62,404 nt of DNA from contig NZ_LT699707.1 in the NCBI RefSeq assembly GCF_900155395.1, forward strand, positions 1 through 62,404. Reading direction: 5' to 3'. The translations under genes and the position numbers were made by a program. The notes below the pieces were generated by a model. That model was given only the letters and a program-made list of their open reading frames with translations. It had not been told where the DNA came from and searched no databases. This document shows, one piece after another, positions 14,110 through 21,657 of this stretch. Source of the DNA: Merdibacter massiliensis. Lineage in GTDB: Bacteria > Bacillota_I > Bacilli_A > Erysipelotrichales > Erysipelotrichaceae. Positions within the stretch are counted from its first letter, which is position 1. Every line of letters begins with the position of its first letter.

Positions 14110-15468
14110 TTACTTTAGCCACTCTGGGGGAAGTTCCAGCTGCTCCACTTCCTCCGGCGTCAATTCCTGAAAATCTCCACCTCCGTTGTCGGGCTGGATG
14201 CGCTCCCAGCCTTTCTGCCGCCCATAGGGGCTGCGGAAGTACCGGGGATTGGAAAACGCCCTCCAGCCGGTCACGCTGTTGTTCATAATGTCGTTGATCT
14301 CCCGGATTTCCCATTGCTTCGGCTCGTCAAAACTGTGTCCCAGGGCTTCCCGGAACAGCTGTTTGGAGCAGACCATGTTATCCGAACACTTTTCCAGATA
14401 CTCGATGATCTGTCCGGCTTTGGTGTCCTCCGGCATAAAGTCACGCTGGTGGACTTTCAGATACTCGTTCATTGCCGGGCTGAACCGGAGTTTGAAGTTT
14501 CCGCTGCGGTAAATCTCCATCGCTTCTGCCCAGACCTGTATGAGATAGGCTCTTGCTGCCGGTTCATCGTCCAGAATGTGAATTTCTGCCAGCTCTGGAT
14601 GTACCATGACCGGCACAAAACGGCGGTTGCCGGTGCGGTCAAGGGGCAGAAAATCCAGCGTATTGGAAGTGCCGCAGAACACACACTGCCGTTTTCGGTC
14701 AGCCGGGTGGGTTTCGTATGGCACTTTATAGGTTTCCTTCTGGCGGCTGAGAAAGGATTTGATTTCCTCAATGCTCTTGGCATTGGCGGTGGCAATCATC
14801 TCCGACATCTCAATCAGCCAGTGTCCCTGCATCTTTCGGTACACATTTTCATCGTCCAGCTTTTTCAGGTCATCGGAAAACCAGTCATCCTGAACTGCCA
14901 GCAGACGAAAGAACGAGGACTTTCCGGCTCCCTGACCGCCCACCAGACAGAGCATGATTTCAAATTTACAGCCGGGACGGAACGCCCGTGAGATTGCTCC
15001 CAGCAGAAACAGCCGCATGGCTTCACAAGTGTAATCATCGGCATCAGCTCCCAGAAACCGGTGCAGACAATATCGGATGCGTTCTATACCGTCCCACTGC
15101 AAGGCGTTGAGAAAATCCCGGACAGGGTGATAGCGGTTTTCGTTGGCAATCACCATCACAGCATCCTGTATCTTTTTCTCGATAGTCATCCCATAGTTTT
15201 CCTCAAAATATAAGAGCAGATATTTGATGTCCACATCGGTCAGGGTCGGGCTGTCCCGATACCAGCCGAGGGGCTTCACAATATCCACTCGTTCTGTCAG
15301 CAGATTTTTTCGGATGGCTCCTTTCAGCAGAGGGTCAAGCTGAAACACCCGTTTATAGTTGGATGCGGCATTGGATACCTTACCTTTCTCGGTCTGTTCC
15401 AGGCTGCTTCTGACCTGTTCCACGGTGCAGAGTTCCGGCTGCTGTCCATTCTGCAATTCGCTGCTCAA
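14110..15468 (-). CDS. VapE/VirE-type superfamily 3-like replicative ATPase (IME-B)
   Basis: 452 residues of the virulence-associated E family. The N-terminal region FLNALQWDGIERI is typical. Walker A is GGQGAGKS (177-184), preceded by the FEIMLCLV strand. Downstream come WLIEMSEMIATANA, the sensor-like FCGTSNTLDFLPLDRTGNRR and a winged-helix-like C-terminus. These phage- and plasmid-type helicases pair with CHC2 primases to replicate mobile elements. Its start overlaps the primase gene by 89 nt. The pair replaces the single fusion protein of IME-A. Confidence 0.85.
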   Translation of the reverse strand: MSSELQNGQQPELCTVEQVRSSLEQTEKGKVSNAASNYKRVFQLDPLLKGAIRKNLLTERVDIVKPLGWYRDSPTLTDVDIKYLLLYFEENYGMTIEKKIQDAVMVIANENRYHPVRDFLNALQWDGIERIRYCLHRFLGADADDYTCEAMRLFLLGAISRAFRPGCKFEIMLCLVGGQGAGKSSFFRLLAVQDDWFSDDLKKLDDENVYRKMQGHWLIEMSEMIATANAKSIEEIKSFLSRQKETYKVPYETHPADRKRQCVFCGTSNTLDFLPLDRTGNRRFVPVMVHPELAEIHILDDEPAARAYLIQVWAEAMEIYRSGNFKLRFSPAMNEYLKVHQRDFMPEDTKAGQIIEYLEKCSDNMVCSKQLFREALGHSFDEPKQWEIREINDIMNNSVTGWRAFSNPRYFRSPYGRQKGWERIQPDNGGGDFQELTPEEVEQLELPPEWLK

Positions 15469-18351: not shown

Positions 18352-18939
18352 TTAAGATGAAAATTCATCCGCTAAATGATTGCTTAACTCGGACAATGAC
18401 TTGATTAGCCCCAGATTACTATATTCAAAATTCTGCGTTAGACTATCCCACTGCATAAATCCAAGACAATGTTCATGACTCTCTCCGTCAACTATGGTCT
18501 GAATATCAGAAATATGGGTTTCAGTAGAAAGAATATGCGCTAAGCGTGGACTTGCCCCATTATCAATATTAACCAGCAAACCATATTTTGCGCCTGAAAC
18601 CAAGCAGTATCCAACAAGTTGTGACCATTCTTTAAGCCCTGCACTGTTCATCAGCTTGACTTCAAGGATTAAAATCTCAAATTGCGTTCCATCAGTAATC
18701 AAAGCAAAAATATCAAGGTTTAGCGGGGGCACTCGATTCGCAAAATTTTTAACGCAGGTACATTTATCTGGATGTTCGGAAATAATTCTTTGCAAATTGG
18801 TTTTCAGTTCGCCGATACCCCAAAAAACACTGAGTTCTTTGTGGCGTTTCGCTCTGAAATTACTTTTAAGCTGAGCTTCTATAAAAGTTTGGATTTCTGG
18901 ATAATACGAAACTTCATTTCGGCTGCGTTTACCGGGCAT
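18352..18939 (-). CDS. PD-(D/E)XK family nuclease, candidate restriction subunit
   Basis: 195 residues from ATG at 18939, 9 nt after GAGGAGG. The open frame extends further but has no ribosome binding site there. The nuclease core is clear: Asp76 (PPLNLDIFAL), Glu93-x-Lys95 (ILILEVKLMN) and a QxxxY motif, Gln107/Tyr111 (EWSQLVGYCLVSG). The start overlaps the stop of the LAGLIDADG-like gene by 11 nt, so the two are probably made in fixed ratio. No separate DNA-binding domain is visible. Specificity may come from the upstream protein. I cannot assign it to a named restriction family. Confidence 0.8.
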   Translation of the reverse strand: MPGKRSRNEVSYYPEIQTFIEAQLKSNFRAKRHKELSVFWGIGELKTNLQRIISEHPDKCTCVKNFANRVPPLNLDIFALITDGTQFEILILEVKLMNSAGLKEWSQLVGYCLVSGAKYGLLVNIDNGASPRLAHILSTETHISDIQTIVDGESHEHCLGFMQWDSLTQNFEYSNLGLIKSLSELSNHLADEFSS

Positions 18940-20320
18940 CTCGTAAGTCCTCCTCAGTAATTTGACGAACGAGCAATTTATATTCATTGTCCGGCGAATT
19001 TGTTACCAAGCGTTTGTAAACATTAGGATTCCGAGCACCAATTAAAGCACCACGACCGTTTCCTACAATAACCAATGGTGTGAGAAGATCAGGCTTTCTT
19101 ATTTCAACCGATAAATCTGCGTCATCATGTGAATGGCGTTCAACAATTTGAAAATATCCTTTTGGACGCTTGCCAGAGAGTTCGTCATCGTTTGCAATGA
19201 CATAGGCAACCGCTTGGAGAATTTCGGCTATTGGATAACCAGTATTAGCAGTAGTGCCATATAACAAAGCTGTTTTATCTTCCTTGTACTGGTCTATCAG
19301 GGTTCCAATATTTACATTAAGAGAAGTGTATTCCCGTCCCGACAGTAGGGGATCTGCTTGAATAATCTCCTCAATCTGAATGTAGCTATCCTTATGCAAA
19401 ATCGGGAACGGGTTAATCAGTTCCCCAATATGCTCAAACTGTTCCCTGATTTTACAGTATGGAGCGTGTTCACAGCCCATTACCGTACAAAAATGTCTGA
19501 AATGAATGTAATGCCCACCCCTAATCAGTTCTGGCAAACGAGTATCATTTTCAGCTGGATGCACTGTGGACGGAGTGAAATGCATATCCCTCGTTTCACA
19601 TCTTTCCGCAGCATGAGTTTCCCTTTGTAATCTACGATTTTCATTTGATGTTTCTGCTTTAGTTCTAAACGCAAATGCACCAAACTGAGCATATTGATCC
19701 AATAAAATTCGCAGCTTAAAGCCTTTGTTCCATTGAGCGTAGTATGAATCGTTTGTGCAATGGATATTTGGATGATTCCAGTTTACCTGATCGGGAATAC
19801 AATTTATGCTGTACAACAGTCGACACAAATCACATACGAACTTAAAGTTGTAGCCCTTGATTTCAAAAGAAATAATTTGATGCTCATCGGTAAAACGGCG
19901 CTGTGATTTTGCCATACTTCCGATTGTATCAGCTAATCCAGCAATAAAGCGGCGTTTAAGATTATCATCAACTAATTCTAATACAACCTGGCTTATATCG
20001 GCACTTCCACGAAGCTCGCCTTCACACACAATGCCATAATGCATAAGGTCATTTTTTACCGCTGTTGTATCGCCTTCGCAAAGAATTGTCCAAGTCCCTC
20101 CGGGAGTGGTTTCATATTGAACAGAAAGGTCATAGACAGCCCGAAACATTTGCCCTACTTTGCGTAGAATATCTCCTGCAATTTCTCCAGCACGCTGTGG
20201 ATTTTCAAGATATGAACCCCATTTTTTATATGGCAGGCGAATGCTGAAAACATCTTCTGCGTTTCCAAATACACCTCCACCTATGATTAACCCCAATAGA
20301 TATGCTTTATCTGTATCCAT
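18929..20320 (-). CDS. LAGLIDADG-like protein lacking catalytic acids, candidate DNA-recognition subunit
   Basis: 463 residues. Two motifs resemble the dodecapeptide of LAGLIDADG homing endonucleases: YLLGLIIGGG (7-16) and FIAGLADTIGSM (125-136). Each is followed by alternating strands and a helix (VFSIRLPYKKW; IISFEIKGYNFKFV then a hydrophobic helix), as in a two-repeat monomeric enzyme. The acidic residue that cuts in true enzymes is Gly15 in the first motif and Ile133 in the second, so nuclease activity is unlikely. The C-terminal 250 residues, with a Cys-rich patch (FCTVMGCEHAPYC), are unrecognised. The gene lies 12 bp after a C5 methyltransferase and overlaps a PD-(D/E)XK nuclease, which suggests target recognition for restriction. 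A homing role is unlikely because there is no intron or intein around it. Confidence 0.6.
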   Translation of the reverse strand: MDTDKAYLLGLIIGGGVFGNAEDVFSIRLPYKKWGSYLENPQRAGEIAGDILRKVGQMFRAVYDLSVQYETTPGGTWTILCEGDTTAVKNDLMHYGIVCEGELRGSADISQVVLELVDDNLKRRFIAGLADTIGSMAKSQRRFTDEHQIISFEIKGYNFKFVCDLCRLLYSINCIPDQVNWNHPNIHCTNDSYYAQWNKGFKLRILLDQYAQFGAFAFRTKAETSNENRRLQRETHAAERCETRDMHFTPSTVHPAENDTRLPELIRGGHYIHFRHFCTVMGCEHAPYCKIREQFEHIGELINPFPILHKDSYIQIEEIIQADPLLSGREYTSLNVNIGTLIDQYKEDKTALLYGTTANTGYPIAEILQAVAYVIANDDELSGKRPKGYFQIVERHSHDDADLSVEIRKPDLLTPLVIVGNGRGALIGARNPNVYKRLVTNSPDNEYKLLVRQITEEDLRDAR

Positions 20321-20332
20321 TCTCTTATCCCC

Positions 20333-21592
20333 TTACTTTTCACTTGTGTTTTTCTTAAATACTTGCTCCATTATTGCCGAAGCGATATTGTATGCCAACA
20401 TAACCGGCACAGCATTTCCTATGACTTTATACATTGCTGTAATGTTTCGTGCTGTATCTGTTAAGAAGTTAAAATCATCGGGGAAAGTCTGAATGCGGGC
20501 AACTTCTCGTACAGTAAACCTTCTGTTTTCAGTAGGATGTATAATGCCACAGTTCTCCGGCTGAGCAGATGCTGTCATAGTTCCACAAATCTCATCTCTT
20601 GAAAAACGACGGTAAAAGTTGGGCGAATGGTACTTTTTCATGTTATCTCGGATTCTTTGGAAACGAGGAGCTAAATGTTCATATGGAACATCTTTCCACG
20701 AGCCACCTTCGGGAATAAATCTAATCATGTCCAGTGCTTGCGGCGAAAGTGCCCAATCCACATTGTTGGCTACTTCCGGCGGCACATCTAAAATGTGACG
20801 CAGCGTCAGATTTTCTTTAGTTTGCTTTTTGGGAAATTCAAAGGTAATGCCCAAGTCTTTGCGGACACCCACAAACAAAACTCGTTGACGGTTTTGAGGG
20901 ACACCATAATCCGATGCATTTACAAGCTGATGCACGACATTATATCCCACGCCATTCATGGTAGACAAATCTTCAACAATGACTTCTGCTAAATTGCGTC
21001 CATCAATATACTTTGTCGAAAGCAAACCTTTAACATTTTCAAAGACAATTACTTTCGGCATCTTTTTTTGAATTATACGCAGACACTCTTTGTATAGCAT
21101 ACCACGAGAGTCGTGGACACCTTTCCGATTACCTGCATTAGAAAAAGGCTGGCACGGAAAACCAGCGGTTAAAATATCTCCATCTGGAATTTCATCTTCA
21201 CCAACCGATAATATATCCCGCTTATCTATTTCGCCTAAGTTGAGCGAGTATATTGCTTGAGCATCTGCATCAAAGTCATTTGCAAACACAATGTCAAATC
21301 CTGCTTTTTTGAACCCTAAATCCATTCCACCACAACCTGAAAACAGGGAGATCAGGCGAGGATGCTCCGGGGTTTCCAGTTCCAGTTCTGGAAGATTTGT
21401 TATGCTGTATGCGGGTTTGTTTTGACAAGAGTTAGACACATATTCATCAACATCACACGCACGAATCCGCCAAGTACGATTGCCAAGTTTTGAAGCTGGC
21501 AAACTACCATTTCCAATCATTCGTCGTATAGTTTTTTCAGAAAGCTGTAGATATTGAGCTGTTTGAGAAACAGTTAACAGTTCCGTATCCAT
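20333..21592 (-). CDS. DNA (cytosine-5) methyltransferase with N-terminal excisionase-type HTH
   Basis: 419 residues. Residues 1-55 are a MerR/excisionase-like helix-turn-helix (LTVSQTAQYLQLSEKTIRRM, then LPASKLGNRTWRI). The methyltransferase begins at about 78: motif I LISLFSGCGGMDLGF, catalytic GFPCQPFSNAG, ENVKGLL, QNRQRVLFVG and the C-terminal VIGNAVPVML. It modifies host DNA for the operon's nuclease. N-terminal HTH domains in other C5 methyltransferases (M.EcoRII, M.SsoII) repress their own promoter. Here a palindrome overlaps the -10 at 21629-21634, so the same is plausible. It is not closely similar to the IME-A methyltransferase. Confidence 0.9.
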   Translation of the reverse strand: MDTELLTVSQTAQYLQLSEKTIRRMIGNGSLPASKLGNRTWRIRACDVDEYVSNSCQNKPAYSITNLPELELETPEHPRLISLFSGCGGMDLGFKKAGFDIVFANDFDADAQAIYSLNLGEIDKRDILSVGEDEIPDGDILTAGFPCQPFSNAGNRKGVHDSRGMLYKECLRIIQKKMPKVIVFENVKGLLSTKYIDGRNLAEVIVEDLSTMNGVGYNVVHQLVNASDYGVPQNRQRVLFVGVRKDLGITFEFPKKQTKENLTLRHILDVPPEVANNVDWALSPQALDMIRFIPEGGSWKDVPYEHLAPRFQRIRDNMKKYHSPNFYRRFSRDEICGTMTASAQPENCGIIHPTENRRFTVREVARIQTFPDDFNFLTDTARNITAMYKVIGNAVPVMLAYNIASAIMEQVFKKNTSEK

Positions 21593-21625
21593 AGGTTAAT
21601 TCCTCCACTCTGTTTTTCGCTATTA

Positions 21626-21657
21626 TATATTCTAATATACGAACCCCCGAATGTCAA
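21626..21657 (-). promoter_or_regulatory. Promoter and palindromic operator of the IME-B RM-type operon
   Basis: TTGACA (21657-21652), a 17-nt spacer, TAGAAT (21634-21629). The palindrome TATATT-AG-AATATA (21639-21626) covers the -10 element and is a good candidate operator for the HTH domain of the first gene product. Confidence 0.7.

Follow-up and report, generated by a model that had tools for sequence, protein, structure and literature searches.

Known roles of LAGLIDADG proteins are those of homing endonuclease, intron maturase and, in the case of WhiA, transcription factor, the fold having been repurposed in WhiA for binding DNA without cutting it. Among restriction-modification (RM) systems, those of Type IIT typically carry two methyltransferases for an asymmetric site and may use a small cutting subunit that is itself non-specific (PMC4081073). 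Here, we report on a cassette of three genes, which we call M, S and R, in a 62,404-nucleotide (nt) stretch of Merdibacter massiliensis (contig NZ_LT699707.1, positions 1 to 62,404; hereafter the window). On the evidence of sequence comparison and structure prediction, this locus is probably a split Type II-like RM system, with a catalytically dead LAGLIDADG protein as its specificity subunit. With somewhat less assurance, we also consider it likely that the dead LAGLIDADG protein is the sole sequence reader for a separate PD-(D/E)XK nuclease, that the two form a portable module found with at least three sets of methyltransferases, and that this class of system is previously undescribed.

The M-S-R cassette and its predicted proteins

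The initial annotation had described three tightly packed genes encoding a helix-turn-helix (HTH) C5 methyltransferase, a 463-amino-acid (aa) protein with two LAGLIDADG-like motifs in which the cleaving acids are replaced by Gly and Ile, and a nuclease with D76, E93-x-K95 and a QxxxY motif. All of this was borne out, as set out below for each protein, and the coordinates, the 12-nt gap between M and S and the 11-nt overlap between S and R were all reproduced.

20333..21592, minus strand: M, 419 aa; HTH_17 (residues 5-53) and C5-cytosine DNA methyltransferase (residues 79-408)
18929..20320, minus strand: S, 463 aa; predicted LAGLIDADG fold at residues 1-240, without both catalytic acids; proposed specificity subunit
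18929..19459, minus strand: S C-terminal region, residues 288-463; no recognised family
18352..18939, minus strand: R, 195 aa counted from ATG; predicted PD-(D/E)XK nuclease, proposed cutting subunit
18929..18939, minus strand: overlap of the S stop and R start, 11 nt; overlaps of 4-14 nt are kept across homologues

M is predicted to be a complete C5 methyltransferase. It matches the Pfam families DNA_methylase (E 1.1e-82) and HTH_17 (E 3.7e-13), and its motifs FSGCGG, GFPCQPF, ENVKG, QNRQR and GNAVP are all intact.

S carries the motifs YLLGLIIGGG at residues 7-16 and FIAGLADTIGS at residues 125-135. Single and profile sequence searches against PDB sequences gave no usable match, and the fold was revealed only by structure comparison, for which an AlphaFold2 model built from a 16-sequence alignment was run against the PDB with Foldseek and then with VIA-align. 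LAGLIDADG endonucleases ranked first in Foldseek (E 1.4e-5 for I-Tsp061I), while VIA-align gave the TliVMA intein endonuclease (Z 15.7, 3.0 Å over 172 aligned residues) and, further, I-Tsp061I (Z 15.4), PI-SceI (15.1) and WhiA (13.7), with coverage mainly of residues 1 to ~240. All of the structural matches listed for S were LAGLIDADG proteins. Judged by its model, S is a member of the LAGLIDADG superfamily, with the fold and its two motif helices present.

By motif alignment, the metal-binding acid positions of LAGLIDADG enzymes correspond to G15 and I133 in S. An acid is absent at both positions in all 26 S proteins compared, which represent three divergent subfamilies with different residues at these places: G/I in the window subfamily, N/T in a distant subfamily and C/R in the locus L034. 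In sequence terms, S lacks in both motifs the acid that marks an active LAGLIDADG homing endonuclease. It might instead be a nickase that, with rearranged metal ligands, cuts one strand and leaves the other to R, on the pattern of BtsI, BsrDI and BspD6I. The layout of a large plus a small subunit is indeed the same as in Type IIT enzymes (PMC4081073), and in the distant subfamily a Glu two residues past the lost motif-1 acid is invariant, so that some residual nicking by its S proteins is conceivable. However, the acid positions of the window subfamily are Gly and Ile and its motif 1 has no acid substitute, the three subfamilies have replaced the acids differently, and the predicted fold of S is LAGLIDADG rather than PD-(D/E)XK. 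A nickase is therefore less likely, above all for the window subfamily, and we rate it as quite improbable overall.

The C-terminal 175 residues of S are well predicted. The window subfamily has them, as does L034 with its long S, whereas the distant subfamily does not; since the ~290-aa S proteins of the latter do without them, they appear dispensable to the basic design; they may supply dimerisation or extra DNA contacts. A sequence search with this region gave no usable match, and a search of BFVD with S returned LAGLIDADG and intein proteins but nothing attributable to the C-terminal region.

Across an alignment of 18 sequences, whose identity to the R of the window goes down to 16%, no variation is seen in the R active-site residues D76 and E93-x-K95 or in Q107-x3-Y111 and E9. 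Single and profile sequence searches with R against PDB sequences gave no usable match, and Foldseek alone found nothing significant in the PDB, the best E value being 0.012 (RPB5-like and PaqCI). In structural comparison of the AlphaFold model (pLDDT 84), the best match was the nuclease domain of the Type IIS enzyme PaqCI (Z 8.8, 132 aligned residues, 3.7 Å, residues 6-161 of R); other fold matches were NucC (Z 7.5), the Type ISP enzyme LlaBIII (7.3), the BspD6I small subunit (6.0) and also SgrAI. An RPB5-like identity was set aside because R has the full PD-(D/E)XK residue set. With the core fold predicted and the D, (D/E)-x-K active site intact, R is assigned to the PD-(D/E)XK superfamily on model and sequence. 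The QxxxY motif is described as a common feature of RecB-like nucleases, present as well in the HsdR nuclease domain of EcoR124I, whose cleavage sites are nonspecific (PMC4454674); by analogy, its presence in R favours, without proving, a need for a separate reader. Neither S nor R had a match above cut-off in Pfam, NCBIfam, PADLOC or PHROGs, the Pfam match of R to PDDEXK_3 being sub-threshold only, so that neither protein reached the threshold of any restriction-enzyme family tested.

Pairing of S with R and exchange of methyltransferases

Homologues were collected from genome contigs (12 relatives), genome searches, viral contigs, and phage and plasmid collections. This gave 29 distinct S loci including the window, whose hosts are bacteria, phages and one plasmid. 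R lies directly 3' of S in 28 of the 29, and of the 24 loci measured, nearly all have an overlap of 4-14 nt between the end of S and the start of R (irregular cases are L010, with no clear R start codon at the coordinate used, and L024, where the start is one codon later). The exception is the viral locus L026, which has kept M while S is truncated after ~85 residues and R is absent; this joint loss is as expected if restriction is lost as a unit. In L013, S is split by a frameshift. A methyltransferase stands 5' of S-R in every locus with sufficient sequence (L011 ends at a contig edge), so that, the decayed L026 apart, the homologues at all sufficiently covered loci have both a methyltransferase and the nuclease as neighbours. 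The M-S-R arrangement is more than chance: its order is kept down to ~23% S identity, and prediction recovers the LAGLIDADG fold. Host names that derive from metagenome-assembled genomes (e.g., Akkermansiaceae, Prevotellaceae) may include binning errors, and we therefore do not take the spread over phyla as strong evidence.

The pairing of S with R is near-obligate. When profiles of S and of R were searched independently, both led to the same five genomes for the distant subfamily within the sampled class and to the same four viral contigs; S and R were never found apart in these searches. A scan of viral contigs with S alone gave no match. In the two groups tested, distances correlated at 0.72 and 0.80 for S-R, at 0.49 and 0.71 for S-M, and at 0.54 and 0.65 for R-M.

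The methyltransferases, in contrast, are exchanged. The window subfamily has a single C5 methyltransferase, with or without an HTH. The distant subfamily, in which S is ~290 aa and R ~165 aa, has an EcoRI-type N6-adenine methyltransferase and a C5 methyltransferase, either fused in one chain (L015-L017, L037, L038) or encoded by adjoining genes (L023, L024, L035, L036, L039). L021, L022 and L040 have an Eco57I/TaqI-type N6-adenine methyltransferase and an N6/N4 methyltransferase instead, and their S proteins fall on the distant-subfamily side of the S tree with support 100/100. Thus, S and R stay paired, with S from one family, while unrelated methyltransferases are exchanged in three sets. 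Because this pairing persists across the exchange and the distance correlation is stronger for S-R, the comparative evidence is strong that S-R would be the restriction unit and M the replaceable protection. The same behaviour supports the proposal, already made by the initial annotation, that a LAGLIDADG protein was recruited as specificity subunit.

The main rival explanation is that S regulates transcription of the RM operon in the manner of WhiA, and that R is a full Type II restriction enzyme able to act alone. WhiA is indeed among the structural matches of S, controllers are frequent in RM operons, and small autonomous restriction enzymes exist, such as PvuII with 157 aa. Yet several relatives have a separate small HTH controller 5' of M (HTH_26 or HTH_17) and the M of the window has an HTH of its own, and a fixed gene order and overlap with R across three methyltransferase types would be unexpected for a controller. 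We consider this explanation unlikely.

Besides the invariant Glu of the distant subfamily, several points weigh against a LAGLIDADG specificity subunit that serves a separate nuclease. The model of S is of medium confidence (pLDDT 78), with parts of residues 138-243 below 50, and the fold scores of R are moderate, its best Z of 8.8 being near the level that the tool calls common. That R is small was rejected as proof that it depends on S, PvuII being equally small. Finally, with its single C5 methyltransferase, the window system is easier to reconcile with a palindromic site than with the asymmetric one that a single-chain LAGLIDADG protein should read. The versions with two methyltransferases, by analogy with Type IIT systems, suit a single-chain LAGLIDADG reader with two non-identical halves and an asymmetric site.

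We still prefer the split RM system with S as reader. The Type II-like label refers to a DNA methyltransferase gene linked to a nuclease gene, the latter recognised by predicted fold and active-site residues, and gene calls and family search found no ATP-dependent translocase subunit encoded within the cassette. In the mechanism that we infer, M would methylate a cytosine in the target and so mark host DNA. S, a putative former LAGLIDADG homing endonuclease that lost both catalytic acids, would read the recognition sequence of M only when it is unmethylated. The homing-endonuclease fold binds long DNA sites, as the initial annotation noted, but a target of restriction could be shorter than one used in homing. 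R, which would be translated in coupling with S and appears to bring no specificity domain, would dock on S and cleave at the site or close to it, probably as a pair of R molecules that together cut both strands.

Individual loci show further features. L034 (4601-7755 and 7958-11500) has a third S-R pair, of strongly diverged sequence. The C5 methyltransferase gene that precedes it is split by apparent frameshifts into three open reading frames (ORFs), and after the pair come a 722-aa ORF and another C5 methyltransferase. If M is really disrupted while S-R is intact, the host would be at risk unless protected by this other methyltransferase; alternatively, the frameshifts may be sequencing errors. 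An extra gene lies between methyltransferase and S in L024 (2868-3941; a 358-aa protein with a NOV_C domain) and in L037 (5480-6205; a 242-aa protein with a stretch that looks similar to the L024 protein), possibly an accessory component. Small HTH_26 or HTH_17 proteins are encoded 5' of the methyltransferase in L016 (355-609), L023 (3684-3902), L036 (1905-2123), L017 (317-508) and L024 (402-659). They may be controllers, and their equivalent in the window could be the HTH fused to M.

Flanking signals and mobile context

The initial annotation had also given the cassette a promoter and a terminator of its own, and a candidate for each was found:

21629..21657, minus strand: sigma-70-like promoter TTGACA-17-TAGAAT, by consensus match only (11/12), ~37 nt 5' of the M start codon
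18289..18323, minus strand: intrinsic-terminator-like hairpin and U-tract, 3' of R; z = -5.5 for the folded stretch

The candidate promoter is well placed, but comparable sites in the region are not enriched relative to shuffled sequences. The guanine-plus-cytosine content is 40-43% in the interior of the cassette and 50-53% farther out on either side; the cassette is ~10 points lower than the surrounding element.

Between positions 14110 and 25859, the window encodes a VapE-like primase, a CHC2 zinc-finger protein, a MobA/MobL relaxase, DUF3847 and DUF6809 proteins and a large serine recombinase with DUF4368. The cassette sits between the relaxase and the recombinase, with the VapE-like primase nearby, and its surroundings resemble an integrative mobilisable element. 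Another genome of the same family contains a related element that shares several flanking genes but has none of M, S and R, and the trio is therefore variable cargo. Relatives also occur in phage genomes and on a small Lactiplantibacillus plasmid, and the module is therefore mobile. This context, together with the LAGLIDADG ancestry of S, is what one might expect if S-R were a nuclease for homing or element mobility and M merely protected the host, the whole serving selfish mobility and not defence. However, neither an intron or intein nor an interrupted target gene was seen, the linked methyltransferases belong to normal RM families, and a trio that is missing from a related element behaves as cargo. 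We give this explanation only a very slim chance.

Comparison with known systems

As the initial annotation had supposed, we found no characterised RM system built like M-S-R: none with a specificity role for a LAGLIDADG protein turned up in the open-licence literature, REBASE lying outside this search, so that a catalogued unpublished enzyme is possible. Since a review of Type II enzymes contains no word starting with LAGLI (PMC4081073) and none of the papers found joins LAGLIDADG to RM specificity, we regard the locus as an RM system whose specificity subunit is of a new type. If this is true, a selfish DNA cutter would have been domesticated through loss of its active site while its reading of DNA was retained, a natural split of reader and cutter that mirrors engineered FokI fusions. 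Given how widely LAGLIDADG readers have been re-engineered, and that the methyltransferases are exchangeable, such compact natural systems could yield new cleavage specificities. Two unannotated protein families, S and R, can also be named as likely restriction proteins of bacteria and phages.

With the LAGLIDADG homing endonucleases (TliVMA, I-Tsp061I, PI-SceI and I-DmoI), S shares over residues 1-240 the predicted fold and the single-chain layout with two motifs, but it has lost both acids, its gene neighbours are a methyltransferase and a further nuclease, and neither an intron nor an intein was seen. WhiA (DUF199) has the same fold, but it acts as a transcription factor, whereas the gene of S goes together with those of a nuclease and methyltransferases. 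Type I and Type IIB systems (HsdS, and the S subunits of BcgI and BsaXI) also use a separate specificity polypeptide to steer a nuclease. HsdS-type subunits, however, steer the methyltransferase as well and have a fold different from that of S, whereas the methyltransferases of the cassettes belong to families with target domains of their own and are exchangeable. PaqCI provides the best structural match to R with its N-terminal nuclease domain, but its recognition domain is in the same chain, and the PaqCI paper makes no mention of LAGLIDADG (PMC10201449). Functionally, by analogy, the closest known are the Type IIT enzymes BspD6I/BstNBI, BtsI and BsrDI. In these, a large subunit reads the site and a small non-specific subunit cuts, and protection of an asymmetric site usually falls to two methyltransferases, which may be separate or fused (PMC4081073); R also matched the BspD6I small subunit in structural comparison. 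Their large subunits, however, have a catalytic site and cut one strand, whereas S has a predicted LAGLIDADG fold without the acids.
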